Shown piece after piece: positions 22,378 to 53,242 of a DNA stretch of 64,000 nucleotides. The stretch spans positions 6,324,001 through 6,388,000 of the forward strand of contig NZ_JAFQ01000004.1 in NCBI RefSeq assembly GCF_000526215.1, read 5' to 3'. Made by a program: the position numbers and the translations under genes. The DNA is from Nocardia sp. BMG51109 (GTDB taxonomy: Bacteria; Actinomycetota; Actinomycetes; Mycobacteriales; Mycobacteriaceae). Numbering within the stretch: the first letter of the stretch is position 1; each line of letters opens with the position of its first letter. The notes beneath the pieces were generated by a model, which saw only the letters and a program-made list of their open reading frames with translations, had not been told where the DNA came from and searched no databases.

Positions 22378-22609
22378 GGTCGGTAATCTAATACAATCGT
22401 ATGGACGACCGTATCGGTCGAGCGGGGGACCCGGTGTCGTCCGGAAGTACGACCGCGCAACCGCGCCGTGACCGAAACCTCATGTCGGGTCCTGTGATTG
22501 AAACGAGAGGCCGGGTCGGTGCCCGGTGTTGCGGCAGCAACCGGCCTTGTTGGCGGTGGTAGCATCGGCGTCGCAGATGACCTTGTCGACCGCGAGAGGT
22601 TTTTCAATC

Positions 22610-23455
22610 ATGGCCAAGTTCTCAGACGACCGGCCTCACCTGTTGAGGTATATGTACTCGCCGTCATCGTCGATTACCGAATTCTTGGCCGAGCACAAGC
22701 CCGAGGCGCTGGCGTGGACGCGAGCTGCGAACAACTCGGTACCTGACGGTATCACCCACGGCACCACGATCGTCGCGCTGAAATTCGCCGGCGGCGCGGT
22801 CATCGCCGGCGACCGGCAGGCCACCAGCGGAACGTCGGTCGGATATCGATACGCGAGGAAGGTGTATCCCGTCGACGCGACCTCGTGCATCGGTGTGGCC
22901 GGCACGTCTGCGCTCGCCTTCGATATGGTGCGGCTGTTTCAGCTCGAGGTCGAACATTACGAAAAGATCGAAGGCAGCTCGCTGTCCCTGGTGGGTCGGG
23001 CCAACAAGCTGGCGGGTATGGTCCGGCAGAACCTTCCCATGGCAATGCAGGGTTTGGCGGTTGTCCCCGTGTATGTCGGGTACGACGACGAATCCGATTC
23101 CGCGCGAATCTTCAGCTACGACCCGGCCGGGGCCATGACCGAGGAATACGAGGGATATCACTCGATCGGCTCCGGGTCGCTGTTCGCGATGGGCAGCCTG
23201 AAGAAGCTCTACGCGGAGGATCTCGGCGAGGACGGCGCGATCGCCGTCGCCCTCGAGGCACTCTACGACGCCGCCGAATCCGACACCGCCACCATGTTGC
23301 CCGACCTGGGCCGCGGGATCTTCCCCACGCTGCACGTCGTGACCTCCGACGGTGAACGCGGCCTGACCGACGATGAGATCGCCACCGTGGTCCAGGGCAT
23401 CCTCGACCGTCGTCGCCGGCAGCCGGACGGGCCGCGCGCCTCCATCACCACGTGA
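22610..23455 (+). CDS. prcB: Proteasome beta subunit (PrcB), displaced to the inhibitor biosynthetic cluster
   Basis: 281 residues from the ATG behind GAGAGG; a TAGCAT box lies at 22560. A 51-residue propeptide (including SSSITEFLAEHKPEAL) precedes the autocatalytic site THG/TTIVAL, making Thr-52 the catalytic Thr1. Asp17, Lys33 and Gly47 of mature numbering are present (AGDRQ, ARKVY, GVAGTS). Mature residue 49 is Ser where the Mycobacterium tuberculosis beta subunit has Ala, and positions 20, 22, 27, 31 and 45 of the substrate pocket also differ. The C-terminal regions EGYHSIGSGSLFAMGSLKKLY and LGRGIFPTLHVV are normal. It is remote from pup-prcA, where prcB belongs, and convergent with the P450, whose end it overlaps by 11 bp. 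It probably pairs with PrcA to give an inhibitor-resistant 20S core. Confidence 0.92.
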   Translation: MAKFSDDRPHLLRYMYSPSSSITEFLAEHKPEALAWTRAANNSVPDGITHGTTIVALKFAGGAVIAGDRQATSGTSVGYRYARKVYPVDATSCIGVAGTSALAFDMVRLFQLEVEHYEKIEGSSLSLVGRANKLAGMVRQNLPMAMQGLAVVPVYVGYDDESDSARIFSYDPAGAMTEEYEGYHSIGSGSLFAMGSLKKLYAEDLGEDGAIAVALEALYDAAESDTATMLPDLGRGIFPTLHVVTSDGERGLTDDEIATVVQGILDRRRRQPDGPRASITT

Positions 23456-24656
23456 CCGGTAGCGCGTCCAAGCCGTAGATGTTGGCGTCGTCCTTGAACG
23501 ACAGTTCGCCGATCGGGACGGCGAGCCGCAATCCGGGCATACGCCGGAACAACGTGTCGAACACAATGCGAAGCTCCAGGCGGGCCAGGTGCTGGCCGAT
23601 GCATTGGTGCGGGCCGTATCCGAACGCGATGTGGTGGCGGACGGGCCGTTCGATGTCGAGCTTGTCGGGATCGCTGAACGCGTCCGGGTCGCGGTTGGCC
23701 ATGCAGTCCAGCGGAACCACGCCCTCACCGGCCCGGATGAGCACGCCGCCGATCTCCACGTCCGCCGTCGCCACCCGGGCGGTGGCGAATTCGGCGACGC
23801 TCAGGTAGCGCAGCAGCTCGTCGACCGCGGCCGGCGTCTTGGCCGGGTCCTGTCGAATCTTGGCCAGCTGGTCGGGGTGCGTGAGCAGCGCCACGATACC
23901 GGTCGCGATCGTATTGGCCGTCGTCTCGTAGCCGCCGACGAGGATCAGAAATGCCAAGGCGGCCAACGCTTCCCGGTCGACCGCCCCCGCTTCCTCTCGC
24001 TGCCGCGTGATCTGCCTGCCGAGCAGGTCGTCGCTGCCGGTACGTTCCTTGCCGGCCACCAGATCGTCGAAGTAGGTACGCAATTCGGTGAAGGCGGTGA
24101 ACCGTTCCGGCACCGGCGTAGTGCGGCGAACCAGCCGGGCCGTGTGGTCCTGGAAGAACGCGTGATCGGTGTAGGGCACACCGAGCAGTTCGCAGGTGAC
24201 CAGCGAAGGCACGGGCAGCGCAAGGGTTTCGACCAGGTCCACCGGTTGTGGCAGGCCGAATATGAAATCGAGTTGATCGTCGACGATCTGCTGGATGCGC
24301 GATCGCAGCAGGTTGACCCGCCGGACAGTGAACTCCCCGGTCAGCGCGCGGCGGGCGCGCAGATGCTCCGGCTGGTCCATTCCGATCAGTGACGGTGTGA
24401 ACTCGTGGGCGGCCTGCGCAAGCTCCACCGACAGCGCGGGATAGCCGGGATTGCGGCGGTCGGAGCTGAATCGGGGATCGCTGAGCATCTGGCGAATGTC
24501 GGCGTGCCGGGTCAGCGCCCAGGCCGGCGCTCGGGTAGGCAGGACCACCCGGGCCACGGGCTCCTGCTCGCGCAGCGCTCGGTACTCCGGCGGTGGATCG
24601 AACGGGTGGGCGCGCGGCCGGGGTACCGACGTGGCGGGCTCGGTGACATCGCTCAT
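23445..24656 (-). CDS. Cytochrome P450
   Basis: 403 residues; ATG overlaps the stop of the dehydrogenase gene by ATGA. Bacterial class I P450 motifs are complete: I-helix LILVGGYETTANTI, K-helix ELLR, and the heme loop AFGYGPHQCIGQHLARLEL with the axial Cys at about residue 353. It belongs to the CYP105/107-like type that hydroxylates secondary metabolites with ferredoxin partners encoded elsewhere. In epoxyketone clusters P450s oxidise the peptide or the terminal residue, so a tailoring hydroxylation is the likely role. It is the last gene of the biosynthetic operon, and its 3' end overlaps prcB. Confidence 0.93.
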   Translation of the reverse strand: MSDVTEPATSVPRPRAHPFDPPPEYRALREQEPVARVVLPTRAPAWALTRHADIRQMLSDPRFSSDRRNPGYPALSVELAQAAHEFTPSLIGMDQPEHLRARRALTGEFTVRRVNLLRSRIQQIVDDQLDFIFGLPQPVDLVETLALPVPSLVTCELLGVPYTDHAFFQDHTARLVRRTTPVPERFTAFTELRTYFDDLVAGKERTGSDDLLGRQITRQREEAGAVDREALAALAFLILVGGYETTANTIATGIVALLTHPDQLAKIRQDPAKTPAAVDELLRYLSVAEFATARVATADVEIGGVLIRAGEGVVPLDCMANRDPDAFSDPDKLDIERPVRHHIAFGYGPHQCIGQHLARLELRIVFDTLFRRMPGLRLAVPIGELSFKDDANIYGLDALPVTW

Positions 24657-26380
24657 GATCGGTTCTCCTCCGCGGGGCGAAGCACGGTGGCGGCCAGCCG
24701 CCCGAAATGGGGACCGTCCTGCTCGGCCAGTTGATCGCGCAGGTATGCGACCCGATGGAAGGCGCTGGTGCAGTACACGTCGGCCAGATCGTCGGCGCTC
24801 GGATGCCCGTCGGCGACCAGCGTGGCGGCCTTGGCGAGCACCAAGGCCACGGTGAGCAACTCGTTGGCCAGCTCGCTCACCAGAATCAGTGGGCGCTCGT
24901 GTGCCGCGAGGGTGGCCGGGTCCGGATGCCGCCGCGCCACCGACAGGCAGATCCGCGACAGCTCCCGGACCGCCCGGGCGGCGGCGCGCAGGTGTTGTTC
25001 GTTGCGGTCGGACAGGTCGGTGCCGGTGAGGCCGTCGAACTCCACTCGATTCGCCTCGATCTCGGCGAGATTGTCCGGATCGGGATGGTAGTAGGTGAAG
25101 ATCGCCTTCTCGGCCGTCCAGTAGTCGAGCTGGAATTCGACGCCGCCGGAGATGCGGAAGTTGCGTACGTCGCGCAGTGCGCGCTCCAGCGGGAACCGGC
25201 GGGCGGAGCCCCGCTCGGCCTTGCTCGATGCTGTCTCGTAGCCCTCGCCGGCGAGGATCGACATGGTCCGATCCACGACCCGCCCGGCGATGACCGAGCC
25301 GATGTTCTTGGCGGCGTTCTGCTCGAACACCGGATTGCCGCCGTCGGCGAAGGTGGGGGAGAGCAGGCTCCACTCGGCGACCGCCTCGATAGCGAAGACG
25401 TCGGCCGCCGACTCCGCGATCCGCCGCTGGATCTCCTCGTACTCCGACAGCGGGCGGCTATCGATCTTGCGTTCGGAGACGAATCGGCACGACCAGTCGA
25501 CGCACTGGCGGGCGATCGCCAGTGACGGCGCCACGATCATGAACAGCCGACCGGCGACGATCATGGTGGACGCTTCGAGAGTGAGGCGGATATCGTCGCG
25601 CGGCGGTGTCCGGACCATCCGCGTTACCGGAACCGCGACGTCGTCGAACCGCACACCGCCGTTGGGAAAGCCCTTGACTCCCATGAACTCGTGTCGCGCG
25701 GTGTGGGTCACGCCGGCGCTGTCGGTGTCCACGACGAAGAGCCGCCGATGCTCGCCGTCGTCTTCGCGCACGGTGGCGGACACAATCAGCAGCTCGGCGA
25801 TAGGGGCGTTGCCGACATGGATCTTCTCGCCATTGATCCGGTATTCGTCACCCACCTGCGTCGCGGTCGTGAACCGTGCCAGGTTGGCCGCGCCTTCCGG
25901 TTCGGTGTCGGCTATGCCGGATATCGTTCCTTGTCGCAGCCGCGCGGCGATGAGGTCACGTAGGTCGCCTTCGGGTAGGTACGGCAGCATCGGGCCGACT
26001 CCCACCGAATTCTCGATGCCCAGCGTGAGCGCCGCCGGTATCGACACCTGCGCGGCCTGTTCGATCAGCCGGAACATCGTGAACTGAGAGACCGCCAGGC
26101 CGCCGAGTTCGGTCGGCACCCGGGCCTTGAGGAAGCCGTGCTCCTGTAGCGCATCGAGCAGGCCGTCGGGCAGCCGGCCGGTCCGGTCGACCGCATCGGA
26201 GTCGACCCGCCCGGTGAGCAGTTCCCTCAGCGAGCGGGCAAGGTCGTCGCCGATCTTGCGGTCCGCCTCGTCCTGGCGTGGGAACGGGCGGAGCAGGTCC
26301 CAGCGGAAGCGACCGAGGTACAGCTGCTCCAGAAAGCTGACCGTCTCCGGGATGCTCATCGGGTTGCGCGGCTGGCTCAT
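24653..26380 (-). CDS. Acyl-CoA dehydrogenase homologue, probable epoxyketone-forming decarboxylase-dehydrogenase-monooxygenase
   Basis: 575 residues, longer than the usual 380-400. The ATG overlaps the PKS stop (ATGA). The acyl-CoA dehydrogenase fold is clear: LQEHGFLKARVPTELGG, SGIADTEPEGAANL (flavin contact), FVVDTDSAGVTHTARHEFMGVKG, read in pieces, and GRVVDRTMSILAGEGYE. Where classical enzymes have the catalytic Glu in a YEGT motif, this protein reads RISGGVEFQ at about residues 410-418, so the base is missing. EpnF and TmcF, close in domain type and gene context, decarboxylate, desaturate and epoxidise the gem-dimethyl beta-keto acid released by the PKS, and the same reaction is inferred here. 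The C-terminal 150 residues are helical and of unknown role. Confidence 0.85.
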   Translation of the reverse strand: MSQPRNPMSIPETVSFLEQLYLGRFRWDLLRPFPRQDEADRKIGDDLARSLRELLTGRVDSDAVDRTGRLPDGLLDALQEHGFLKARVPTELGGLAVSQFTMFRLIEQAAQVSIPAALTLGIENSVGVGPMLPYLPEGDLRDLIAARLRQGTISGIADTEPEGAANLARFTTATQVGDEYRINGEKIHVGNAPIAELLIVSATVREDDGEHRRLFVVDTDSAGVTHTARHEFMGVKGFPNGGVRFDDVAVPVTRMVRTPPRDDIRLTLEASTMIVAGRLFMIVAPSLAIARQCVDWSCRFVSERKIDSRPLSEYEEIQRRIAESAADVFAIEAVAEWSLLSPTFADGGNPVFEQNAAKNIGSVIAGRVVDRTMSILAGEGYETASSKAERGSARRFPLERALRDVRNFRISGGVEFQLDYWTAEKAIFTYYHPDPDNLAEIEANRVEFDGLTGTDLSDRNEQHLRAAARAVRELSRICLSVARRHPDPATLAAHERPLILVSELANELLTVALVLAKAATLVADGHPSADDLADVYCTSAFHRVAYLRDQLAEQDGPHFGRLAATVLRPAEENRS

Positions 26381-29300
26381 GCATGTGCTCCTGTCGATAT
26401 CGGGTGCCGGCGTGCCAATGCTGTGCGCAGTTCCTCGGCGACCTGCCTGACGTGCGGTTCCTCCAGCACAGTCCAGTGCCGGCCGCCGACCGGGCGGACT
26501 ATCACGTCCCCGGCATACAGCGACGCCAGCTCCCGGCGCAGCCAGCGCGCCCGCACCGGATCGAGCCGGGTCTTGAGCACGAGCACCGCGCAGTCGACCG
26601 GTCGCGGCCGGTACCGCCACATCGCGCGGATGTTGTCGCTGAAGACCCGGCGCACGTCGGGTGCGTCGCGAACCAGCGCTCCCGCCGCCCCGACCCGCAG
26701 GGCGGCGGTCGCCTGATACCACAGCCCGATGCCGTGGAAACCCCGCAGGCTGCGGATCGGCTGCCCGTGGGTGTCGGGCACATACCCGTCGATGCACACC
26801 AGCATCTCCACCCGCTCGCCGAGTTCCCGCAGACGGCGGGCGATCTCGTGCGCGACGACGGCCCCGAAGGACCAGCCGCCGAGCAGGTAGGGCCCGTGCG
26901 GCCGAACGCGGCGAATGGCCTCGAGGTGGTGGGCAGCGATGTCCTCCACGGTGGTCTCGCCGCGAGCCGTGAGTTCTGGTTCGATGCCGTATACCGGGCG
27001 GTCGTCGAGCAGCCCGGCCAGGGCCCGGTAACTGAGCGTGGTCCCGGCTGCCGGGGCGGCGAGAAACAGCGGGGTTCGGGGGCCGCCGTCGCGGAGTACT
27101 ACCAGATGCGGGTCGCTGCCGGTGGTTTCGGCCGAATCTCCGGCGGACTGCCGGGCCAGGTCGAGCAACCGGCCGAACGTGGGCGCCCGGGTGAAGGTGG
27201 CCGTGGGCACGTTGATTCCGGTGCGGGCGCGGATCCGGCCCATGAAGTGCACGGCCATCAGCGATTCCCCACCGAGGGCGAAGAAATCGTCGTCGTCGGT
27301 GACCGCGGGCACACCGAGCACGTCGCACCACAGCGCGGTGAGCCGATCACGCAGCGGGTCGTGCGGTGCGGCGGGCGCGGTCGTGGTGACCGGATTCGGC
27401 TCCGGTGCGGCGGGCGCCTGCGCCCGGGCCGGTGGTGGTGCGAGCCGGACTGTGCCCGGCAGCCGGTCGTCGGACAGCAGCGCGGGCAGCGCCGCACTCT
27501 CGTCCGTGGCCAGTCGTGCCACGCGGACGTGGTGCCACCCGGGGTCGAGCTCGTCGACCGGATCGAGTTCGCGCCGCCACCTCTCGGCGCGCCAGCCGCC
27601 GGCCGGATCGTCCTGAGTCACTACGTATCCGCGGCCGGACACGGCGGGCGACCGGAGCAGTTGCGTCCACGTTCGGGCCGCGTCGGGGCCGAGTGGTAGG
27701 TAGAGCACGTTGTCGAAGTCGCGTCCCCGGAGCTGTTCGACCGCCCGCTCGACGGGCGGGAGGTGGTCGGTCGCGGGGATCGACCCGATCAATACCGCAT
27801 GGTCGGCGTCCTCGCCGGACGCGTGCACCGAGACGCCGGTGAACCCGGTCTCGGTCAGTGCGGCTGTCCAGGCAGGACGGGCCAGCATGATCGCGTCCGT
27901 CCGATCCGGGCCGAAGTCCCACCATCCCGGGGTGAGCCCCCACAGCACATGAGCCCACCGCGACACCGCGGTCATCTCGATGAAGCACAGCGAACCCCCG
28001 GGGCGTAACAGCCCGGCGAGGTGGCCCAGAACTGTGCGGACATCCGGCGCGACATGAACGGCGTTGTAGGCCAGGACGATATCGAAGGTGCCTCCGGGCA
28101 ACCCCTGCTCCGTCGGGTCCCGAGTCAGGTCGTATCGGGCGAACCGCATCCGATCGGCGAGGCCGAGCTCGTCGGCGCGCTGGGCCGCACGCCGCAGCAG
28201 CAGCGGGCTGATATCGGTGAAGTAGTACTCCAGGGCGGTGTCGGTGTCCCAGCCGTCCAGCAGTGGCCAGGTCAATTCGGCGTTGCCCGCGCCTATTTCG
28301 AGGATACGCAGCGTCCCCGTGGCGCCGTGTGCCGCCGCGTGGATGGCCCGGCGCACCGTGTCCATGCACACCACGACGTCGCCGGACGGATTGATCCGGT
28401 TGTCGGTCAGGCTGTCCCGAAACAAGGTCGGGTCGCCCTCCGGGTAGAGCACCGAGACGCGCTCCATCGTTCCGGAGAAGACCGCTGGGTAGGAGGCCGC
28501 GCAGTGGTCGAGAAGGCGCCGTAGCCCGGACAGTTCATCGAGATCGTTTCCCGCGCGCAGGGCGCGATCGACCTGCTCGGCCATGTCCGCGCACATCCGC
28601 ACACCATTCGATCCCCAAGCCAGCCAACCCTGCTCGGTGAGGACTCGGAGCATGAAGTCGATGAACTTCGGCAGCATGTCCTGCGGATCCAGCCGAGAGC
28701 GCAGGACAGCTGCGTCGATCACGCTGCCCGGTTCGACCTTGCCGAACCGCAACACGAAGCGGCCGACCAGGCCCGCGGAGAACAGGTCGAGGTGGTTGCG
28801 CAGGTCGGCACGCGCAGACAGCCGGTCGGCCGCGATCTCGGCGCGTGCGGCCCCCGCCATGGCCGTGGGCAGGTGCTCGGCCAGCGGCAGCATCGATGCC
28901 GGTGCGTCGGTGTCGGCGTACGCCGACACCGGGACACCGGCCGCGGCAACGGTTTCGGCGATCCGCACCCCGTCGGCGCGGCCGGCGCTGACGATCGCGA
29001 CCCGACCGGTGCCGGGCCGTGCGGCGCGCTCGGTCGCCACAGGCAGTGCCGTCCACTGCCACCACCGCCCGTCCCGCCGGGCCAGCAGCGCGGTCCGGCC
29101 CGCGGGCGCGGGGACGCGATCGGGCGGGGCCTCGGTGCCGAGATCGAGAACGGTGACATCGCCGGGTTTGTCTCGGCGGCACCGTATCCAGGACTCGATC
29201 GATGTCGCGACCGCGGCGGCGGTATCGGCGGGGGATATGGCCGTCAGACCGCGTCCGGCCACCATGAGCCGAATCCCGAGGGCGGCGAGCGCGTCGGCCG

Positions 29301-32142
29301 AGGCGTCGAGCTGGTCCACCGTTGCGTCGGTGGCGTCGGTCGGCAGCATGACCAGAACCGCGGTGGTCGTCTCATCGAGATATTCGCCGATCGCCGAAAT
29401 CGCCGGGACACAGCGAATTGCGGCGTTCGGGGCGGCCAATGCCGTGACGAGGCCGTCCGATTCGCCGGTGACGACGATCCCGGAGTGCCGCTCGACGGCA
29501 CCGGTCCGGACCTGGGCCCAGGCGTCGGTGGTCACGCCGGTGGCGGCCACCGACCGGTCCGGGCCGGGCACGGTCGTTCGACGCGGCGGGACCAGGGGCG
29601 CGAAGGGCACCGGCGGCAGGGCGCACCGCTGTGGCCGATCGTCGCCGGTGGTCTGCTCCAGCGGGATGTCCAGCCCGCGTTCCCACAGAACGCCCAGCGC
29701 GTGCAGCAGGGTCTGCTCGGTCGCGTCGGCCGGCTTGCCGAGCAGCGGCATTGCCAGCCTGTCGGCGCTCCAGTCCGGATGCCGACGCAGCGTCCCGATC
29801 ATGGAGCTGCCCGGCCCCAGTTCGACGAACGTGTCGCACCGGTCGGCCAGCAGAACACCGACGCCGTCGTCCAGCCGCATCGGGCGCAGCAGGTGCTCAG
29901 CCCAGTAGCCGGGGTCACGGAGCCGGTCGGGTCGGGCCCACGTACCGGTCAGGCCGGACACCAGGGGCAGCGTGGGCGTCTCGGTGGGAACGGCGGCGAC
30001 GGCGGTACGGACCTGGTCGGCGGCCGTCGCCATCAGCGGCGAGTGAAATGCTTGCTCGGTATCCACCGTCCGCACCTGCAGGTCGTCCAGCGCGCCGGAG
30101 GTCAGCACGGCATCGATGGCGTCGCGGGCGCCGGACAGCACGGTTGTCCCAGGTCCGCGGACGGCCACCACCACGTCCGCCCGCGATCCGAGCCGCGCCT
30201 CGAGATCCGCGGCGGGCGCGGCAACCGCCAGCATCCGGCCGGCCGGGGTGGCCCGCATAGCGGCGGCTCGGCGGTGAATCACGGTGATCGCGTCCGGCAG
30301 CGACCACAGCCCGGCCAGGGTTGCGGCGATATATTCACCGATGCTGTTGCCCAGCATGGCCGCCGGTGTGACAGCCCACTCGCGAAACTGACAGCCCAGG
30401 CCATACCCGAGAGCGAACAACCCGAGCTGCTGGTTCACGGTGTCGCGGAACCAGCCGGGATCGGCGCCCTCGGTCACCAGCGGTGACAGATCGACAGCGT
30501 GATCGCGCCGGGCCGTGGCGGCGGTCTCGTCGAAGTAGTGGCGGAAACTCGGCAGTCTGCGGTAGGCGGCCACGGCAGCCCCGGCCGCAAGCGTGCTCTG
30601 GCCCGGGAAGAGGAATGCCACCCGCGGTGTTTCGACGATCTGCGTGGGCACGCGGTCGGCGCGCAACCGGTCGGTGAGACGCGCACGGTCGTGGGCGACG
30701 ACGGCGATCCGGTGAGTGAGTCGGCGGCGTCCCGCGAGCGTCGCCGACACGTCGTCCAGCCGCGGGCAAGGCGCGGATTCCAGCCTGTCGGCGACCGCGT
30801 CGCGCAAACCGGCCAGCGCCTCGGATGTCTTGGTGGACAGCACGAACAGTCGCGGTCGCGACTGTTCGGCGGCGCGATCCCGGTCCGGCGGAGCCGCCAA
30901 GACGGCGTGCACGTTGGTACCGCCGATGCCGAACGAGCTGATCCCGGCCAGGCGCGCGGCCCGCTCGGGCCACGGCTGGTGCTCGGCAGCGATCCGGAAT
31001 GGTGTGTCGTCCAGGGCCAGAAGCGGATTCGGCTGTCGGAAGTGCACGGTCGGGGCGATCTCACCGTGCTCCAGCTGTAGTGCGGCCTTGATCAGCCCGG
31101 CGATGCCGGCCGCCGCGCCTGCGTGCCCGATATTGCTCTTCACCGATCCGAGCAGGCAGTAGCGCCGGGCCGGAGTGGACTCGCGGAACGCCTCGGTCAG
31201 CGCCTGCACCTCCACGGGATCCCCGATCCTGGTGGCGGTGCCGTGCGCCTCCACGTATCCCAGGTCGGCGGGGTCGATCTCGGCCTGTGCCAGGGCCAGC
31301 CGAATCACATCGCGTTGGCCGGTCACCGACGGCGCCGTGTAACCGATCTTGTCCGAGCCGTCGTTGTTGATCGCCGAGCCGCGCACCACGGCCACGATCC
31401 GGTCGCCGTCGGTCAGCGCGTCGGACAGCCGCTTGAGCACGACGATGCCGGCGCCTTCGCTGGCGACGGTGCCGTCGGCCTCGGCGTCGAACGGTCGACA
31501 TCGCCCGTCCCGGGACAGGATGCCGCCCTCCTGATGGAAGTAGCCGCGCTGCTGCGGGAGCGAGACCGCGACACCACCTGCCAGTGCGACGTCGCATTCG
31601 TAGCCGAGCAGGCTCTGACAGGCACTGTGCACTGCGGTGAGTGCCGTCGAACATGCGGACTGGACCGTCACCGCAGGCCCCCGCAGCCCGAGCTTGTAGG
31701 CGATCCGAGTGGCCAGGTAGTCCTTGTCGCGGCCGAGTACCTGCGCCATCACGTCCGTGTCGCCGTCGAGGTCGAGCAGTACTGGGTCGCTGCCGGCGAA
31801 GACGCCGATCCAGCCGGGAAACCGGCGGGGATCGACGCCCGCGTCGTCGACCGCCTCCGACGCGCATTCCAGCAGTACCCGCTGCTGCGGATCGATGAGT
31901 GCGGCCTCGGCCGGGCTGTAGCCGAAGAACTGCCAGTCGAACTGGTCGCCGCCGGGCAGGACACCCCGGGCGGGCACGTAATCCGGGTGTCGGGCGGCCG
32001 CCGGGTCGGCGAGTTCGTCGGGCCGGAACCGGTGTACGGTGTCCGCTCCGGCGCGCAGGTTGGCCCAGAATCGGCCGACGTTCGGTGCACCCGGGAATCG
32101 TGCAGCCATCCCTACGATTGCGATGGAGCCTTCGGTCGACAT
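26377..32142 (-). CDS. Type I polyketide synthase, KS-AT-cMT-ACP-TE
   Basis: 1921 residues, starting 3 bp after the NRPS stop. KS (1-430): active Cys in QSACSTA at about 162, His in EAHGTATRIGDP and KSNIGHAG. AT (about 500-800): nucleophile in GNSIGEY near 600, with Asn replacing the usual His before Ser, and AFHSPLM pointing to malonyl-CoA. cMT (about 1080-1450): SAM loop EIGAGNAEL near 1280. ACP (about 1580-1660): phosphopantetheine Ser in LGGESL. TE (about 1680-1915): GGWSFGAV. No KR, DH or ER. One malonate would be added to the peptide, C-methylated (probably twice) and released as a beta-keto acid. This matches EpnH/EpxE of epoxyketone pathways. Confidence 0.93.
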   Translation of the reverse strand: MSTEGSIAIVGMAARFPGAPNVGRFWANLRAGADTVHRFRPDELADPAAARHPDYVPARGVLPGGDQFDWQFFGYSPAEAALIDPQQRVLLECASEAVDDAGVDPRRFPGWIGVFAGSDPVLLDLDGDTDVMAQVLGRDKDYLATRIAYKLGLRGPAVTVQSACSTALTAVHSACQSLLGYECDVALAGGVAVSLPQQRGYFHQEGGILSRDGRCRPFDAEADGTVASEGAGIVVLKRLSDALTDGDRIVAVVRGSAINNDGSDKIGYTAPSVTGQRDVIRLALAQAEIDPADLGYVEAHGTATRIGDPVEVQALTEAFRESTPARRYCLLGSVKSNIGHAGAAAGIAGLIKAALQLEHGEIAPTVHFRQPNPLLALDDTPFRIAAEHQPWPERAARLAGISSFGIGGTNVHAVLAAPPDRDRAAEQSRPRLFVLSTKTSEALAGLRDAVADRLESAPCPRLDDVSATLAGRRRLTHRIAVVAHDRARLTDRLRADRVPTQIVETPRVAFLFPGQSTLAAGAAVAAYRRLPSFRHYFDETAATARRDHAVDLSPLVTEGADPGWFRDTVNQQLGLFALGYGLGCQFREWAVTPAAMLGNSIGEYIAATLAGLWSLPDAITVIHRRAAAMRATPAGRMLAVAAPAADLEARLGSRADVVVAVRGPGTTVLSGARDAIDAVLTSGALDDLQVRTVDTEQAFHSPLMATAADQVRTAVAAVPTETPTLPLVSGLTGTWARPDRLRDPGYWAEHLLRPMRLDDGVGVLLADRCDTFVELGPGSSMIGTLRRHPDWSADRLAMPLLGKPADATEQTLLHALGVLWERGLDIPLEQTTGDDRPQRCALPPVPFAPLVPPRRTTVPGPDRSVAATGVTTDAWAQVRTGAVERHSGIVVTGESDGLVTALAAPNAAIRCVPAISAIGEYLDETTTAVLVMLPTDATDATVDQLDASADALAALGIRLMVAGRGLTAISPADTAAAVATSIESWIRCRRDKPGDVTVLDLGTEAPPDRVPAPAGRTALLARRDGRWWQWTALPVATERAARPGTGRVAIVSAGRADGVRIAETVAAAGVPVSAYADTDAPASMLPLAEHLPTAMAGAARAEIAADRLSARADLRNHLDLFSAGLVGRFVLRFGKVEPGSVIDAAVLRSRLDPQDMLPKFIDFMLRVLTEQGWLAWGSNGVRMCADMAEQVDRALRAGNDLDELSGLRRLLDHCAASYPAVFSGTMERVSVLYPEGDPTLFRDSLTDNRINPSGDVVVCMDTVRRAIHAAAHGATGTLRILEIGAGNAELTWPLLDGWDTDTALEYYFTDISPLLLRRAAQRADELGLADRMRFARYDLTRDPTEQGLPGGTFDIVLAYNAVHVAPDVRTVLGHLAGLLRPGGSLCFIEMTAVSRWAHVLWGLTPGWWDFGPDRTDAIMLARPAWTAALTETGFTGVSVHASGEDADHAVLIGSIPATDHLPPVERAVEQLRGRDFDNVLYLPLGPDAARTWTQLLRSPAVSGRGYVVTQDDPAGGWRAERWRRELDPVDELDPGWHHVRVARLATDESAALPALLSDDRLPGTVRLAPPPARAQAPAAPEPNPVTTTAPAAPHDPLRDRLTALWCDVLGVPAVTDDDDFFALGGESLMAVHFMGRIRARTGINVPTATFTRAPTFGRLLDLARQSAGDSAETTGSDPHLVVLRDGGPRTPLFLAAPAAGTTLSYRALAGLLDDRPVYGIEPELTARGETTVEDIAAHHLEAIRRVRPHGPYLLGGWSFGAVVAHEIARRLRELGERVEMLVCIDGYVPDTHGQPIRSLRGFHGIGLWYQATAALRVGAAGALVRDAPDVRRVFSDNIRAMWRYRPRPVDCAVLVLKTRLDPVRARWLRRELASLYAGDVIVRPVGGRHWTVLEEPHVRQVAEELRTALARRHPISTGAHA

Positions 32143-32145
32143 GAA

Positions 32146-41100: not shown

Positions 41101-44100
41101 GTCCTGATTCTGAAATGCGGCCAGAGCCGTGGTGCGTACCCGGGCCAACAGCTCGGTGAAACTCGGGTCGCCCGACGTATCGTTGCGCAGCACAAGCGTA
41201 TTGACGAAACATCCGATCAAATCGTCGAGCGCGTGATCGAGCCGCCCCGCTACGGGGGCGCCGATCGGAATATCGTCACCACTGCCGAGGCCGGTCAAGA
41301 GGGCCGCGACCCCGGCCTGCAACACCATGTAGACGGTCGTCCCGGTGCGCTGTGCCACCTCTGCCAGCACGCCGTGCAGTTCGGCGTCGATGCCGAACTG
41401 CACCGCCTCCCCCCTATAGCTGGCCGTGGCGGGGCGCGGATGGTCGGTCGGGAGCCGTAGTTCCTGCGGCAACTCGGCCAGCGTCTCGGTCCAGTACTTC
41501 AGCTGGGTATTCAGCACGCTGCCGGCATCATCGGGTTCGCCGAGCACCTCGCGCTCCCAGCGGGCGTAGTCGGCGTATTGCACGGGCAGCGGCGCCGGAT
41601 CCCATGCTCGCCCGTTCCGCCGTGCCCGATAGGCGGCGGACAGATCCGCACCCAGCGGTCGCAGCGACCAGCCGTCGGAGGCGATGTGGTGCAACACGAT
41701 CAGCAGCACGTGCTCGTCGGGGCCGAGCGCGAACAGCGTTGCCCGCAGCGGTGGCTCCGAGGCCAGCTCGAAGCCGTATCCTGTGGCGGCGGCGAGCGCG
41801 GCGGGCAGGGCCCGCTCGTCGAGCGCGATGTCCGCGACCTCCGGCTCTACCGCGCCCGGATCGAGAATGCGCTGGTACGGGACGCCCGCCGCATCCGGGA
41901 CGAGCGTTCGCAGCGTCTCGTGCCGGGCAACGATATCCGAGATCGCGGCGCGCAATGCCGAAGGGTCCAGAGGCCCCCGAATCCGGAGGGTGAGCGGAAT
42001 ATTGTAGGTCCGGCTCGGCCCCTCCAGCCGGTACAGGAACCACAGGCGCTGCTGGGCATACGACAGCGGGACAACCTCCGGCCGCGGTCGCGCCACCAGC
42101 GGCGGCCTGGCTTCGCGTGCCGTGGCGACTCGCGCGGCGAACCCGGCGACGGTCGGGGATTCGAACAACTCACTGATCGTGACCTCGGTGCCGAGCTCCG
42201 ACCGGAGCCGGTTGACCAGCCGGGTGGCCAGGAGCGAATGGCCTCCGAGGGTGAAGAAATTATCGTCGGCGCGTATCACGGGCAGGCCGAGCAGGTCCGC
42301 GAAGAGGTCGGCGACGAACCGCTCCATCGGGGTTCCGGGTTCGCGTCCGCTGTCACCGGACACGGTGCGTGGCGCGGGTAGCGCGGCGCGGTCGATCTTT
42401 CCGTTGGCATTGAGCGGAAGCCGGTCCACAATCACGATCGCCGACGGAATCATGTAGTTGGGCAACAGATCCGCCAGATAGGGGCCCAGCGATCGGGCTA
42501 GCGCGCCGAGCCGGTGCGAACTCGCCGGATTGTTCGTGTAGGTGGCCGGCGGGGCGTCCGTCGCCCCTCGCTCGGTGACCGGATCGGCCATATGGTCACC
42601 AGCTCCGAACGTATAGTCCAGGCAATGCTCGGCGTCGGCCGACCACTGCGCCCGCACCCGGAAGCCGAGTCGTTCGCCGAGTTCGTATATTTCCTCGGGG
42701 TCGATGCCTCCGTCGCCGATCGCAAGAGCGGTGGCCACATCGTCGCCCTGTTCCAGCGCTCGTGTCGCGGCAGTTTCCCACCACACCCGGCGGTTGGGCA
42801 CTTTCAGCAGGCGCACTGTGATCTCGCCGATCGGGCGCTCGGATGCCTCGGCCAGGTGCGTGGACAACCGGGCCGGATCAGCTACGTCCGTTCCCCACCG
42901 CAGGGTGAGTGGCTCGCGCTCGTCCCCACGCCGCCGCGGCCCTTTGAAGAGCACGGCCTGATACCGGTACCGGGTCAGCTCGTTGTGTGCCCGGCCCCGC
43001 TTGACTTCGACGGCGACAGCGTCGATGCCCGGGAGACGGGCCGCGATCGTGGTGAAGAAGTCGGGGTCGACGAGCAGCTCGGTGTCCAGCAGTACGCCGC
43101 GGCGGGCCGCGTGCAGTAGGGCGCTCGCGCTCGCACCGGCCGTGGACCGGCGCAGCTCTATCGCGGTGCGGAAGCAGCGGTGCAGGCGCGCATTGCGGAC
43201 ATCGCCCACGAATACCGCACCACCGGGGGCGAGCAGCCCGGTCACGGCGCGTAGCACATCCACGAGATAGTCGGCGTTGGGGAAGTACTGTACGACCGAG
43301 TTGAGGATGACGGTGTCGAAGAATCCTGCCGGTAGCCCATTGGCGGAATGGGCGGGCCGGCAGAGCAGGTGCACTCGATCGGCCAGCTCGGGCAGGGTGT
43401 CGAGCTGGGTCTGCAATCCGTCGATCGCCTCGGCGGAAAAGTCCGTGGCCCAATATGTTTCGCAATCCGGCGCCAGCCCGGCCAGCAACAGGCCCGAACC
43501 CACCCCGATCTCCAGCACCCGCCGGGGACGCAGGCGCGCGATGGCGGCCACGGTCGCGTCGCGCCACTCACGCATATCGGGTAGCGGAATCGGGCGGCCG
43601 TCGTAGCTCGAGTTCCAGCCGACGAAGTTCTCCGCGAACGGGACCTCCCCGGCGCTGCGGTAGAGCGAGGCGTAGATCTCCCGCCATTCGGCCAATTGCT
43701 GATCCGGATCGGCTACCGCCGGACCGTTTTCGGCGGGTACGACATAGGCGGCGAGCTGTTTGCCGGCCGATGGGTTGTCATGGACCACCGTGACGGCCTG
43801 GGACACTTCGGGATGCCGGGTCAAGACGGCCTCGATCTCGCCGAGTTCGATCCGAAAACCACGCAGCTTGACCTGCGTGTCGATCCGCCCGACGAACTCC
43901 AGGTCGGCACGCCAGCGAACGAGATCGCCTGTCGCGTACATGCGTTGTCCCGCAGGCCCGAACGGATCCGGAACGAAACGTGTCGCGGTGTGCCCCGGCC
44001 GGGCCTGGTAGCCGCGTGAGACACCGGCGCCCGCCAGGTAGAGCTGACCGACCGCACCCTCCGGAATCGGCTCGAGCTTCTCGTCGAGCACATACACGCG

Positions 44101-46422
44101 CCGGTTGGACATCGGCCGCCCGATCGGGACGGCCTGCTGCGGGCCGAAGTCGCGCGGCAGCGGCACACTGGTGGCGAAAGTCGTTGTCTCCGTGGGCCCG
44201 TAGACGCTCACGACGGTGGTATCCGGGCACGCGTCCAGCACACGCCGGATCAGTCGACCCGATCCGGCCTCGCCGCCGGTCCACACCTCACCGACGGCGG
44301 CCAGGCAGCCCGGATCATCCTCGGCGAGCGCGCCGAACAGCGCCGTGGTCAAAAAGACGGCGTCTACGCGATGCGAATAGCGGCGCAGCAGTGCCGCATC
44401 CACCTCGCCGGTGGCGATCACCACGGTGCCGCCGTGCAACAGGGGCACCCACAGCTCATAGGTCGACGCGTCGAACGCGTGTGGCGAATGCATGAGCACT
44501 CGGTGATGGCGGCCGTCTGCCCAGGCTCGGTCGAAGGCGAACTCGACCACGTTGCGGTTGGTGACCTGGACACCCTTGGGAGTTCCGGTGGAACCCGAGG
44601 TGAACATGACGTACGCCAGGTCCTCCGGCCCGGTGGGGAGGGGCGGCCGTTCCGCGCTCCGCGGCGCATCGTCGATGTCCACTCGAAGAGTCCGGATGGC
44701 CCCGGCGCCCTTGTGATCGTGAGTGACCTCGTCGACGAGCAGCAGCGGCGAGCCCATGTCGGCGAGTACCGCGCGCATACGGGTCAACGGATAGCGCGTG
44801 TCCAGCGGTACGTAGATGCCGCCTGCCTTGGCGATCGCGAGGATCGCCACAATCAGATCGGGCGAGCGATCCAGCAGCAGCGCGACCGGTGTTCCCCGGC
44901 CCACACCGTGCCTGGCGAGGCGCCCGGCCAGCTTGTCGGCACGGGCGTCGAGGTCGGTGAAACTCAGTGTCGCATCACCGAATTCGACCGCCACCGCGTC
45001 CGGTGTGCGGGCGGCCTGCGCCTCGAACAGTAGCGCCGGGATGCCGACCGGGGCCGGATGGGCGGTGGCGTTGCGGCCGACCAGCAACGACCGGCGCTCG
45101 GCCGTATCCAGCAGATCCGCGGCGCCGATCGGTTGGTCCGGATTGTGGCCTATGACGGTGAGCAGTCGGCACAGTCGGCGATTGTGCGCCTCGGTCTCGG
45201 AGTCGGTGTAGAGGTCGGCATGTGCGTCGGTGTCGATGCGCAGCCCGCCGTCGAGGAGCCGGTAACAAACCAGGGACAGGTCGTCGACCGGCATCGTGGA
45301 CAGGTTGATCAGCGCGGCCGGGTGACCGGCGAAGAGGTAGTCGGAATCCGGGATGATGTTGACGATCGGGCCGAAGTACTGGCCCGGATGCGCCGCGACG
45401 AAGTCTCGGCGCACGTCCTCGCCCCGATACTGCTGGACAGCGGTCACCTCGCGCACCCGGGTCGCGACGTGGTCGATGAGCTCGAGCCAGGTCTGCTCCG
45501 GCCGGACCGTCAGGCGCAGCGGCAGCACATTCGAGGCCATTGTGGGCACCCGCCGGGCGAGTCGGCTGGTGCGCCCGCTGACCGCGAGGCTGAGCATGAC
45601 GTCGGTGTCGCCGCGCATCCGGCCGAGGTATGCGGCGAGGGCTGCGATGGGCGCGATCTGCCACCGGGCTCCGACTCGGCCGGTCGCCGCCGCCAGACGA
45701 TCCGTGTCGGCCGTGGACAGGATGCCGGTGCGCCGCACCACGTCGCGGGCCAACTCGGCACCGCCGGACAGATAGGTGGGCGCGGGGCGGTCTGCGAGCA
45801 GTTCGGCCCAATGCTGCGCGGCGGCAGCGAATTCCGGGCTGTCCGGGTACGCGGTGTCTTCGGCCAGGTAGTCGCCGAACGATCCGAACGGGGATTCGCT
45901 CGGTGCCCGGTCGGCCAGCAGCGCCGTGTACATGTCGGCGACCCGTCTGGTGAACAGGGTGATGCCGAAACCATCGACCAGCAGATGATGGAACTTCGAG
46001 AACCACAGGGTCTCGGTTGGTGACACAGCCAGCAGCGCGAATTCGAACAGCGGTGCCCGGCTGGTATCGAACGGCTCCCGCAGCCGGGCATGCATCCACT
46101 CCTGTGCCGCGGCCCGCGGATCGGCGGCGGCACCGAAGTCGTGTGCCGGAATCTCCCAGGCGTCGGACGGCTCGAGCACCTGTCGGATTCGATTGCCGTC
46201 CTCGATGAAACGGACCCGCAGTCCCTCGGCCTCGGCGGTGGCGTGCCGTATCGCCCGCCGCAGGGTCCGCGCGTCGATCGGACCGGAGAACTCCACGCAG
46301 GTCGCGATGTGGTACGCCGGGTTGTCGGGGCGGGCGCGGTGTGCGAACCATATCCCGCGCTGGGCGGCGGACAGGGGCCGGAGCAGATCCGGCGGAGGCA
46401 GGTGAAACACTGTGCTGGACAC
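32146..46422 (-). CDS. Four-module non-ribosomal peptide synthetase with an N-methylating first module
   Basis: 4758 residues; GTG start, GAGGA six bases upstream. Module 1: starter C (HHLLVDG near 145), A1 (about 460-860, specificity residues D A Y F W G V T F, Ile/Val-like), N-methyltransferase inserted before A10 (EIGVGSG near 965), PCP (GGHSL near 1395). Module 2: C (HHIASDG near 1577), an extra C-terminal C half (about 1910-2090), A2 (D F W N I G G I F), PCP near 2635. Module 3: only an N-terminal C half (about 2700-2855, HHLVWDM), A3 (D F W N I G M V H, the exact Thr code), PCP near 3390. Module 4: C (HHLVFDG near 3575), a second C-terminal half (about 3875-4125), A4 (D V A S I G G I F), PCP near 4685. 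No TE; the chain passes to the PKS. Expected product: N-acyl-N-Me-Ile/Val-X-Thr-X. Confidence 0.92.
35706..40124. repeat. Patchwork tandem duplication of about 2.28 kb inside the NRPS gene
   Basis: Three near-identical blocks occur twice: 35706-36044 with 37974-38312 (N-terminal C half), 36374-36833 with 38654-39113 (end of A, A8-A10), and 37036-37838 with 39322-40124 (start of A to the FGGE motif). They are separated by divergent blocks. One of these (36834-37035 and 39114-39321) holds the A5 region that differs between A2 and A3. By eye the blocks look identical or nearly so over hundreds of bases. The offsets are 2268, 2280 and 2286 bp. The pattern indicates duplication of an A-PCP-C(N-half) unit followed by local exchange. 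Confidence 0.9.
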
Positions 46423-46431
46423 GAAGATTCC

Positions 46432-47982
46432 TCACCCGTGGGCAGCGTCGGCCCGAACGGACAGCGCGTGGCGGAAGATGTTCAGGGGATCGAAGCGATG
46501 CTTGACCCGTTGCAGCCGGGCATAGTTGTCGCCGAAGTAGAGCCGATGCCAGGGCACGCCGGAGGCGTTCTCGTTCGGATCGGCGAGATCGCTGTCGGGA
46601 TAGTTGATGTAGGCGCCGTCGGCCGGATCCGGCACGCCGCCGGTGGCCGCGTACACCTCGCGGTAGAAGTCTCGGATCCAGGCGAGGTGCAGGGCGTCTT
46701 CGGCGGGATCGAGCCACGGTGCCGAGTACAGCAGCCGGGCTATGGCGCCGCGGTGTACGGTGGCCGTCGCACCGGGTGCGGGTGTGTTGATCGCCCCGCC
46801 GAAGGTGGCAATGCCCAGAGAGCCGCCGATCCCGGGGTAGTCGTCGCGGACGAGTTGGTGAAAGATCGTTGCACTCTGCTCGTCCGTGAAAGGCCGGGTG
46901 AGGAAGCCGGATTTGATTTTCAGCCGGTAGTTCTTGGTGTTGTCGGGACCGGCATACACCGAGGCCAGCCAGGGGCGCGGCGTCTTGGTCACGCTCGACG
47001 GGGGCGCGACCTGCGCACCGAGCGCGGCGAGATGCTCGTCGAGCAGCCGCTCTGCGTCCGGCCCGCTGGTCTGGCCGATCAGCACATGCTTGCCGAAGGG
47101 CTTGCGAACCAGGATGAGTTCGGCGTAGTAGCGGGAGGCGGGTGCGTCGGCCGCGTTGTTGCGCTCGCACCATTCGCCGTGATTGCGCACGAAGGTGATG
47201 AATCGCTGCTCGTCCATGCCGTCCCAGGACCACTCGCAGCTGAAGTCGAGCACCGATGCCGGTGGTGTGGGTAGCAGACGGCTCGGATCGCTCGCGGTGA
47301 CACCGGGTGAACGAAACCAATAGCGGGTAACGATCCCGAAATTCCCGCCACCGGCACCGGTGTGTGCCCACCACAGGTCGCGGTTCGGGTCGGCAGGATC
47401 GCGGGTGGCGACTACGGCGCGGGCGCGGCCGTTCAGGCCGACGACGACCACCTCGACGGCATACAGGTGGTCCGCGGCCAGCCCGTGCAGCCGCGAGAGC
47501 GTGCCGTACCCACCGCCGGGGATGTGCCCACCGACCCCGACCTTGGGGCACCAGCCTCCCGGGATCGTCACGTTCCAGCCCAGGAAGAGTCGGCGGTAGA
47601 CCTCCTCCAGTAACGCCCCGCCCTCTGCCACGAACGCGTTGTGCTCGGGGTCGAAGTCCACCGAACTCATGCCGGACAGGTCGATGATCACCTGGATGTC
47701 GGGCGTATCGACGAAGTCGTCGAGGCAGTGGCCGCCGCCCCGCACCGCGATCCGCTTGCCCGCCTGCACGGCCTCGTTCACCGCATCGATCACCTGCTCG
47801 GTCGATCCGACGATGCGCACGTAGTCGGGGCTGGCGACGAATCGTGGGTGTCCGCGGTGGACGAGGTCCTGATATCGCGGGTCGGAAGGGGCGACGGTCA
47901 CGGGTCCGAACCGGAAACGGCCGGCTGCGGAGGATGTTTCGACCCCCGCTGATGCATTCTGCTCGGTGGAATTGTCCTGCAA
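46432..47982 (-). CDS. BBE-like FAD-linked oxidase with bicovalent flavin motifs
   Basis: 516 residues from a TTG start with AGGGGG 5-6 bp upstream. It is the first gene of the biosynthetic operon, 9 bp before the NRPS. The VAO-type FAD domain contains RGGGHCLDDF (His for 8-alpha linkage) and GGWCPKVGVGGHIPGGGYG (Cys for 6-S linkage). It continues with AVEVVVVGLNGRARAVVATRD and WAHTGAGGGNFGIVTRYWF, read in pieces, and ends with the C-terminal BBE tail (YINYPDSDLADP, FGDNYARLQRVKHRFDPLNIF). Such oxidases act on alcohols, amines or carbon positions of secondary metabolites. I recall no counterpart in the described minimal epoxyketone set, so it may add a modification specific to this product. 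Confidence 0.9.
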   Translation of the reverse strand: MQDNSTEQNASAGVETSSAAGRFRFGPVTVAPSDPRYQDLVHRGHPRFVASPDYVRIVGSTEQVIDAVNEAVQAGKRIAVRGGGHCLDDFVDTPDIQVIIDLSGMSSVDFDPEHNAFVAEGGALLEEVYRRLFLGWNVTIPGGWCPKVGVGGHIPGGGYGTLSRLHGLAADHLYAVEVVVVGLNGRARAVVATRDPADPNRDLWWAHTGAGGGNFGIVTRYWFRSPGVTASDPSRLLPTPPASVLDFSCEWSWDGMDEQRFITFVRNHGEWCERNNAADAPASRYYAELILVRKPFGKHVLIGQTSGPDAERLLDEHLAALGAQVAPPSSVTKTPRPWLASVYAGPDNTKNYRLKIKSGFLTRPFTDEQSATIFHQLVRDDYPGIGGSLGIATFGGAINTPAPGATATVHRGAIARLLYSAPWLDPAEDALHLAWIRDFYREVYAATGGVPDPADGAYINYPDSDLADPNENASGVPWHRLYFGDNYARLQRVKHRFDPLNIFRHALSVRADAAHG

Positions 47983-48016
47983 TGTGGATCCCCCTGGCCG
48001 TTATTGCCGCAAAATG

Positions 48017-48068
48017 ATATCCGAGCGCTGTATTTGCCACCGGTCGGACCGGCGTGGATATCGGATAT
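48017..48068. promoter_or_regulatory. Nested dyad, candidate operator of the biosynthetic operon
   Basis: Outer arms ATATCCGA (48017-48024) and TCGGATAT (48061-48068) enclose a perfect 13-bp palindrome CCGGTC-G-GACCGG (48040-48052), itself flanked by CCAC/GTGG. The element lies 35-86 bp upstream of the TTG start of the FAD oxidase, the place for an operator or an attenuating RNA structure. Confidence 0.5.
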
Positions 48069-48518
48069 TCCGCGACTACAGTTCTGGCCATGACTCGAGC
48101 CCCGTGACGTAGCGGGCTCACCGACGATACGGGACGGAACTCGAACATCCGGAAACCGGGTGTCAAGAATTCAGGCGAAACAACGCAATATCTGCTTTGC
48201 CTCTTGCTGTATTTCAGAAGTCGACTACCCTGGTCGGCCGTGCGCACAGGCGATGTGCGGCATCTCGAGTAGGGAGTTCCACTCTGTCACAACATGAATG
48301 GCGACGAATGCGACCACAGTGCTCATCGCATGTTATGGCTATTCGTAATAGTACGACGATGTCGGCGACCGTGGATTTACCACGGCGCACCGGTGTAGTT
48401 CGAGCAGTTTAGAACCGGATCCAGATCTCATACGGGAACCCCCCGGAAAGTTGACATTCGAACCAAGACCCTGGCTCGATCCTATCGTGATCTGTTGGCC
48501 TCTTCAAGGGGCCTTCGT

Positions 48519-48540
48519 GCGTCCGAGAGTATTCGGACGC
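48519..48540. promoter_or_regulatory. Perfect hairpin upstream of dop
   Basis: GCGTCCGA and TCGGACGC form an 8-bp stem around a GAGTAT loop. There is no U tract on either strand. It could be a protein-binding dyad, or a transcript end between the divergent units. Confidence 0.4.
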
Positions 48541-48688
48541 CCATAGAAACGGGGCTTGACGCCATGTCGGTGAACAAATGGCCGATACGTACCACTGCGC
48601 CGCCCGCGCCCGAGGGCGTACCTGGGGGCCGTGTCGCACCGGTCCACCTCCTGCCGCAACCCGCAACGGAGATGTTCCGCGGCGCAGA

Positions 48689-48694
48689 TAGGAT
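48689..48694 (+). promoter_or_regulatory. -10 box of a leaderless dop promoter
   Basis: TAGGAT is followed by 6 nt and the dop ATG. There is no purine-rich ribosome site, so the transcript probably starts at or within a base or two of the start codon. Confidence 0.55.
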
Positions 48695-48700
48695 TCTGGC

Positions 48701-50397: not shown

Positions 50398-50427
50398 CCG
50401 ATATCAGTACGGAGGAGGTCGGCTGCT

Positions 50428-50622
50428 ATGGCACAAGAGCAGACCAAGCGCGCCGGTGGTGGCGACGAGGACGATGACGCGGTCGGTACTGACGCCGCGG
50501 GACAGGAGCGTCGCGAGAAGCTGGCGGACGAGACCGACGACCTGCTCGACGAGATCGATGATGTGCTCGAGGAAAACGCGGAGGACTTCGTGCGCGCATA
50601 CGTTCAGAAAGGCGGCCAGTGA
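50428..50622 (+). CDS. pup: Prokaryotic ubiquitin-like protein Pup
   Basis: 64 residues; GGAGGAGG ribosome site ten bases before the ATG. Typical disordered, acidic protein: a Gly/Asp-rich N-terminus, the central coiled-coil region EKLADETDDLLDEIDDVLEE that binds the Mpa/ARC ATPase, and the C-terminal VRAYVQKGGQ. The terminal Gln means Dop must deamidate it before PafA can ligate it to substrate lysines. The stop codon overlaps the GTG of the next ORF (GTGA), the same junction that links pup to prcB in mycobacteria. Confidence 0.97.
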   Translation: MAQEQTKRAGGGDEDDDAVGTDAAGQERREKLADETDDLLDEIDDVLEENAEDFVRAYVQKGGQ

Positions 50623-51699: not shown

Positions 51700-51810
51700 T
51701 TGTCATTTGCCGAGTTCGCAGGCTGTGCGCCTGTGCATCGAGTGCGAAATCGTTGCGAACCCGTATGCATCGGCTTGCGCGCACAGCCCATTTCGGACAG
51801 GGCATGGCTG

Positions 51811-51816
51811 TAATGT
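51811..51816 (+). promoter_or_regulatory. -10 box of a leaderless pafA promoter
   Basis: TAATGT is followed by exactly 7 nt and the pafA GTG. No ribosome site is visible. Confidence 0.55.
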
Positions 51817-51823
51817 CGATGGG

Positions 51824-53182: not shown

Positions 53183-53229
53183 CGCGACACGAATAGTGCG
53201 CCGACGCGCATGCGTCGGGGCGGGCCGAT

Positions 53230-53235: not shown

Positions 53236-53242
53236 GTGTCGC

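Follow-up and report, generated by a model that had tools for sequence, protein, structure and literature searches.

A foreign proteasome beta subunit, the only one of its genome, encoded at the end of an epoxyketone-type gene cluster in Nocardia sp. BMG51109

How does a bacterium that is equipped to make a proteasome inhibitor keep its own proteasome at work? The question is raised by a 64,000-nt stretch of the genome of Nocardia sp. BMG51109 (GCF_000526215.1, NZ_JAFQ01000004.1 6,324,001-6,388,000; hereafter the window), where an operon predicted to make a peptide epoxyketone ends against prcB, a gene for a proteasome beta subunit. Such clusters often have a beta gene: PMC8988807 counts one in 9 of 17 epoxyketone clusters, and of those whose product has been assigned only the epoxomicin cluster lacks it. 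Self-resistance to proteasome inhibitors has so far been described as the possession of an extra, resistant copy of the target, and a sequence-only reading of the window had taken prcB for a protective duplicate of the SalI kind. That claim does not hold, because prcB is the sole beta gene of its genome and foreign to the host lineage, and the native gene has shrunk to a stub. We propose instead, with a probability of roughly three in four, that the island beta subunit has replaced the native target: a horizontally acquired epoxyketone island brought prcB, the native prcB was deleted down to a stub, and resistance arises by target replacement.

The sole beta gene and the stub of the native one

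The genome (8.79 Mb, four contigs, completeness 100%) has two matches to PF00227, namely the cluster-borne prcB at window position 22604 and prcA, the alpha-subunit gene, at 50825; used as a query against its own genome (E≤0.01), prcB returned the self match only. The island PrcB scores 298.8 bits against TIGR03690 (cut-off 191.9) and has Thr1, Asp17 and Lys33. At the host proteasome locus the intact genes are dop, pup, prcA and pafA, all of which exceed their NCBIfam cut-offs. The slot between pup and prcA, where relatives have prcB, holds a short open frame about 1.9 kb beyond the island. This frame overlaps both its neighbours, with its GTG on the pup stop and its stop on the prcA start. 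A tblastn search with this frame found the N-terminal region of native prcB in 10 of the 11 relatives compared, with identities of 40-58% and E values from 4e-4 to 6e-8; the remaining relative, G020, gave no match at E≤1e-3. The frame matched no Pfam or NCBIfam family. Alignment with the 11 native PrcBs reveals an eroded propeptide motif, the absence of Thr1 and a deletion that starts around mature residue 20 and reaches almost to the C-terminus. At the DNA level, window positions 50354-50765 and 50804 onwards correspond to 39767-40179 and 40863 onwards in the relative G022, which amounts to a net loss of about 645 bp with the frame still open. The SalI-type arrangement, a second copy beside an intact housekeeping prcB, is therefore not what the genome holds; the stub and the sole beta together are what is expected when a native target is lost to, or superseded by, a cluster copy.

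It follows that the only 20S proteasome of the strain should consist of native PrcA and island PrcB. PrcA, Dop and PafA are constrained as in congeners, as expected if the proteasome still works: the mean difference from 10 congeners is 0.230 for PrcA (0.224 among the congeners themselves), 0.077 for Dop (0.075) and 0.031 for PafA (0.029). At PrcA columns invariant in the 10 congeners the window protein has five changes of its own, compared with 0-4 for each congener taken as the odd one out. From this constraint, and from the absence of any other beta, we infer that island PrcB assembles with host PrcA.

The island PrcB is foreign to the host lineage. It is only 45-52% identical to Nocardia PrcBs, at a locus where identities to congeners are 72-81% for PrcA and 86-98% for Dop, PafA and Pup. 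Its closest database proteins are PrcBs of Pseudonocardiaceae (61-63%); the PrcB of AR_456, a metagenomic clone that directs clarepoxcin production (PMC8009326), reaches 57%. In a tree of 58 PrcBs the window sequence lies, on a long branch of its own, in a clade of 10 rows (support 100/99) together with AR_456, Amycolatopsis nigrescens, Actinophytocola gossypii and others, and an approximately unbiased test rejects its grouping with 17 Nocardia PrcBs (p=1.25e-5). An origin of the clade within the native PrcBs of Pseudonocardiaceae was likewise rejected (p=0.0044).

The insertion site can be placed with the help of four relatives, in which the DUF418 gene (21169-22377 in the window) and dop (48701) are neighbours only 122-157 bp apart. 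To the right of dop, prcB is the one departure from collinearity with these relatives; to the left of the DUF418 gene, synteny holds only in patches. The island therefore lies directly upstream of dop and has replaced most of its upstream region, so that a single stretch of 0.72 kb (window 47983-48700) now separates the cluster operon from the divergently transcribed dop-pup-prcA operon. Repeats sought at both island edges yielded a longest common word of only 11 bp. Horizontal acquisition is the best explanation for the island.

A split between prcA and prcB is rare among relatives. In a survey of 60 genomes, 55 had prcA; the genes are separate in BMG51109 and adjacent in 53 of 53 others, with G026 left out of the count as its prcA lies at a contig end, and the remainder comprised one genome with a beta only and four with nothing. 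A second survey of 41 genomes found prcA in 37, with two Spongiactinospora genomes split and 35 of 35 others adjacent (remainder: one with a beta only, three with nothing). Taken together, the two surveys thus place prcB beside prcA in 88 of 88 relatives that could be evaluated, BMG51109 and the two Spongiactinospora genomes aside, a count that leaves out 249 genomes of a Pseudonocardiaceae-type family. As a separate observation, two genomes of the same genus (G004, G014) and one of the same order (G055), all of completeness 100, have no PF00227 match, which may reflect either proteasome loss or missing sequence.

The cluster and its expected product

The features of the locus are listed in the table below. 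The minus-strand operon described by the sequence-only reading is confirmed and comprises, in transcription order, the flavin adenine dinucleotide (FAD) oxidase, a nonribosomal peptide synthetase (NRPS), a polyketide synthase (PKS), an acyl-CoA dehydrogenase (ACAD) homologue and a cytochrome P450, with prcB indeed convergent at its end, where it overlaps the P450 gene by 11 bp. The tight spacing claimed for the operon is right in order of size (FAD/NRPS, 9-bp gap; NRPS/PKS, 3-bp gap; PKS/ACAD, 4-bp overlap), and needs correction at the ACAD/P450 junction, where the overlap is 7 bp with the start codons used.

Table. Features of the epoxyketone island and of the adjoining proteasome locus (window coordinates; C, condensation; A, adenylation; MT, methyltransferase; T, thiolation; KS, ketosynthase; AT, acyltransferase; cMT, C-methyltransferase; ACP, acyl carrier protein; TE, thioesterase)
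Feature	Position	Strand	Evidence
Inserted island, ~26.3 kb, between DUF418 gene and dop	22431..48700		neighbours in four relatives; left edge approximate
prcB, sole proteasome beta gene of genome	22604..23455	+	TIGR03690, Thr1/Asp17/Lys33
Cytochrome P450	23445..24659	-	PF00067
EpxF orthologue (assigned), flavin decarboxylase-desaturase-epoxidase of acyl-CoA-dehydrogenase fold	24653..26380	-	67% to EpxF, 9gn5, residues
PKS KS-AT-cMT-ACP-TE	26377..32142	-	Pfam
NRPS, 4758 aa: C-A-MT-T, C-A-T, half C-A-T, C-A-T	32146..46422	-	Pfam + motifs
Duplication within the NRPS gene of A-T-half C; DNA identity of the two copies 89.5%	35705..40125	-	NRPS gene self-comparison
FAD oxidase, BBE-type	46432..47982	-	PF01565 (FAD_binding_4), PF08031 (BBE)
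dop (depupylase/deamidase)	48701..50200	+	TIGR03688 above cut-off
pup	50428..50622	+	TIGR03687, PF05639
Native prcB stub, 69 codons	50619..50828	+	tblastn, alignment with 11 native PrcBs, DNA synteny
prcA, proteasome alpha subunit	50825..51628	+	TIGR03691 above cut-off
pafA (start codon uncertain)	51806..53182	+	TIGR03686 above cut-off
Two WYL-domain regulators, pafB/pafC-like	53210..55292	+	WYL, WCX, HTH_PafC

The assignment to the epoxomicin type, also made from the sequence beforehand, finds support in the EpxF-like dehydrogenase, an EpxD-like NRPS and, within the same operon, a C-methylating PKS with a TE, the combination that characterises epx, epn and tmc clusters. Comparison with known epoxyketone clusters by protein search gave 67% identity (over 97% of the query) between the window dehydrogenase and EpxF of the epoxomicin producer, and 47% to a protein of Streptomyces sp. 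BRA346 of the eponemycin/TMC type. The sequence-only reading would have failed had the dehydrogenase sided with ordinary ACADs, and it does not: its best match among solved structures is EpxF (9gn5) with 822.8 bits, far ahead of ACAD9, the next chain, with 91.3 bits. In a tree of 25 rows the window protein joins a metagenome protein (100/99) and then EpxF (80/68); this adds little beyond the grouping itself, because the outgroup, two ordinary ACADs, has very long branches. All 13 EpxF residues named in PMC12624316 are identical in the window protein, including Arg273, Ser406 and Phe227, and alanine mutants of Arg273 and Ser406 abolished inhibitor production (PMC12624316). These two essential residues, which mark the EpxF/EpnF/TmcF type, are R278 and S411 in the window; Arg273 is kept in 23 of 23 EpxF-like rows and Ser406 in 20 of 23, the window included. 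We class the dehydrogenase as an EpxF orthologue on this sequence evidence. Within the genus it was found in 1 of 150 genomes, namely its own (E≤1e-60). Relatives of the FAD oxidase (61% and 62%) adjoin an EpxF-like gene and a proteasome beta in Spongiactinospora (L075:15398-16864) and in G1005 (L137:8675-10147), respectively, and a stand-alone condensation-domain protein is encoded in the left flank of the window (18737-20203, minus strand; PF00668, 72 bits).

The four NRPS modules reported earlier are there as far as four A and four T domains go; of the C domains three are complete and one is a half. The modules read C1-A1-MT-T1, C2-A2-T2, half C3-A3-T3 and C4-A4-T4, with an N-methyltransferase-like domain in module 1. 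Half C3 retains its N-terminal part (HHLVWDM) and lacks the C-terminal lobe, and the duplicated unit (A-T-half C) measures 2.17 kb; adjacent A-T-C stretches of EpxD are likewise 88.5% identical to each other. A damaged NRPS was considered and rejected, because half C3 recurs in the clones AR_456 and AB_1241; C3 of EpxD is complete. By best local alignment the NRPS is 57% identical to EpxD (59% of query) and 60% to each of AR_456 and AB_1241 (73% and 78% of query); by bits, the top of the database search is taken by longer Streptomyces-type synthetases at ~42-44% identity. The pocket letters, read by motif, are DAYFWGVT for A1, DFWNIGGI for A2 and DFWNIGMV for A3, the last of which is the threonine code. 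AR_456 agrees with the window at the visible A1-A3 letters, and A4 differs among the window, AR_456 and EpxD. An epoxyketone is the likely product; a new congener is plausible, as A1-A3 equal the clarepoxcin clone and A4 differs, and a clarepoxcin-like compound is the natural guess.

In the mechanism that we propose, whose warhead chemistry is taken from the work on EpxF, the NRPS would make an N-methylated, N-acylated peptide, to which the PKS would add a C2 unit and two geminal methyl groups before its TE releases a beta-keto acid; the EpxF orthologue would then decarboxylate, desaturate and epoxidise this acid. Its target would be Thr1 of ordinary beta subunits, and island PrcB would be spared by virtue of an altered S1 pocket. 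Loss of the native prcB by deletion would leave all rings with island PrcB only. The bacterial beta ring is homo-oligomeric, so that any sensitive native subunit would end up in mixed rings; its loss would make resistance complete.

Pocket residues, other carriers and rival explanations

The pocket was compared in 58 PrcBs, of which 33 come from the native slot. The latter all have Ala49 (33/33), with Ile45 in 31 and Tyr45 in two. Thirteen copies outside the native slot have Val49, with Phe45 in 11 and Tyr45 in two; Phe45/Val49 is the SalI pattern. The two Spongiactinospora cluster betas have Ala45/Gly49. Within the window clade Val45, Phe53 and Ala49 each occur in nine of 10, and the window protein itself departs from the SalI pattern with Val45/Ser49, Ser49 being unique among the 58. 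Position 49 lies in the S1 pocket, so Ser49 fits resistance without proving it; island PrcB is probably resistant to the product.

Further PrcBs outside the native slot were noted on the way. Copies with SalI-like Phe45/Val49 occur in Nocardia G005, G007, G008, G009, G019 and G026 (L040, L041, L042, L043, L044, L032) and form a Nocardia-only clade (93/82). No match to the window PKS or EpxF lies within ~10 kb of them; L042 and L044 hold weak A-domain-like matches (25-30%). These copies are possible resistance genes without a producer cluster. Others are found at G183:C90:4438-6540, L138 (G1005) and L141 (G1027), the last two with weak matches to adenylate-forming enzymes (25-27%) about 1 kb from the PrcB copy.

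EpxF-like matches were found in 23 genomes (BMG51109 itself, and 5, 7 and 10 by survey), and the state of the native prcB could be judged in 15, three of which have lost it: BMG51109 and the sister species Spongiactinospora rosea and S. gelatinilytica. In both of the latter an EpxF-like gene (50%) adjoins a beta and an FAD oxidase, a second beta is also present, and the interval between pup and prcA holds ~6 kb of other sequence (L072:7304-13408, L073:8092-14190). Beside prcA there remains a prcB fragment of 44-47 residues, 59% identical to the relative G179 (E 4e-10 and 8e-9). Spongiactinospora thus appears as a second lineage in which an epoxyketone-type cluster has its own beta and the native prcB has decayed. 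Its cluster beta groups with the native beta of G179 (100/99), so that the route differs from that of the window, and a move of a native-lineage gene is the likelier one. Among the judged carriers a beta lies beside the EpxF-like gene in four (BMG51109, the two Spongiactinospora and G1005), and the native gene is lost in three of these four and in none of the 11 whose betas lie elsewhere by whole-genome position. This association is suggestive only, because the Spongiactinospora pair is not independent.

Several observations weigh against target replacement as we read it. Most of the judged carriers, 12 of 15 (G176, G177, G178, seven others, G1005 and G1027), still have an intact native prcB. 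An acceleration of PrcA was sought against the 10 congeners and not seen, nor was strong co-adaptation. The window PrcB is closer to Pseudonocardiaceae proteins than the 57% it shares with AR_456, and a strict sister relation with the AR_456 protein was narrowly rejected (p=0.049). The evidence from the pocket is no more than suggestive, as nine members of the 10-row window clade keep Ala49. Finally, among 397 genomes of the order only Actinophytocola gossypii (G573; L120, L121) and G335 (L122, L123) had another window-type beta (E≤1e-98), and both have it as their sole beta, away from prcA, with dop-pup-prcA-pafA lacking prcB. No convincing prcB remnant lies between pup and prcA in either; neither genome has EpxF, and no NRPS, PKS or EpxF orthologue lies near the sole beta. 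Relocation of a beta thus needs no cluster. Such betas may have outlived clusters that were lost; alternatively, the clade may have become mobile independently of clusters.

The last two points are also what would be expected by drift, in which island PrcB is not specially resistant and a redundant native copy was deleted by chance. We regard this as unlikely, in view of the 3/4 against 0/11 split in native loss (two of the three being sister species) and of the serine at pocket position 49, which is valine in 13 non-native copies. The other alternatives appear far less probable. Had a rearrangement carried the native gene to the end of the cluster, the single beta gene would be explained, but the native stub is still in its slot and the grouping with Nocardia PrcBs is rejected, so we give this little credence. 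Much the same applies to an assembly error: the locus is judged from assembled contigs, yet it lies inside an 8.53-Mb contig, collapse would not yield a stub with a diverged propeptide and no Thr1, and two Spongiactinospora assemblies show a comparable outcome. Least probable of all is that prcB duplicates an intact housekeeping gene for protection, a reading for which the extra copy of the salinosporamide cluster (PMC7888443), the many cluster-borne beta genes counted in PMC8988807 and the second betas of other Nocardia provide precedents; here the genome has no second beta, and the native slot holds a stub.

Target replacement therefore remains our preferred reading. Going further, we lean towards the view that producers can abandon their housekeeping beta and have done so at least twice independently, by a foreign replacement in Nocardia and probably by a native-lineage gene moved into the cluster in Spongiactinospora, the orphan Pseudonocardiaceae betas perhaps being relics of lost clusters.

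Significance and known counterparts

If this is correct, self-resistance has gone beyond the extra resistant copy, in that the sensitive copy is gone. The locus would be nature's own test of mixed rings: selection should delete a sensitive subunit if a single one is enough to spoil the multi-subunit chamber. It also makes several questions testable. Does a bacterial alpha ring accept a beta that shares only about half its residues with the native partner? Do pocket changes unlike those of SalI give protection from epoxyketones? And can the capture of a housekeeping subunit make a biosynthetic cluster impossible to lose? With the cluster beta as the cell's only one, losing the cluster would mean losing the proteasome. 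Genome mining gains a cheap flag, the absence of prcB between pup and prcA. No report of native prcB loss in a producer was recognised by title within a mainly open-licence literature, and the section of PMC8988807 on epoxyketone clusters, in the part available, does not mention it.

Among known systems, the epoxomicin cluster of Goodfellowiella coeruleoviolacea resembles the window in EpxF, EpxD, the module-1 N-methyltransferase and the threonine code in A3. It differs in its complete C3 and, reportedly, in having no beta gene (PMC8988807). The clarepoxcin clone AR_456 shares the NRPS (60%), half C3, the A1-A3 letters and a cluster PrcB of the same clade, but differs in the A4 letters and in a PrcB of only 57% identity, and the fate of the native prcB of its host is invisible in a clone; its dehydrogenase was not identified among the matches to the window dehydrogenase. 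The Spongiactinospora clusters likewise have an EpxF-like gene, an FAD oxidase and a beta side by side and a decayed native prcB, but their beta is of the family's native lineage, a second beta is present and ~6 kb separates pup from prcA. SalI is also a cluster-encoded proteasome beta (PMC7888443), but in Salinispora it is an extra copy, whereas that of the window is the sole one. In the platensimycin system the housekeeping fabF locus is still there and provides a second element of resistance (PMC6332302), whereas the window has only a remnant of the native gene, and its target is a homo-oligomeric ring. What the window would share with PtmP3 of that system is the principle that a cluster-encoded, insensitive enzyme takes over the job of the target (PMC6332302).

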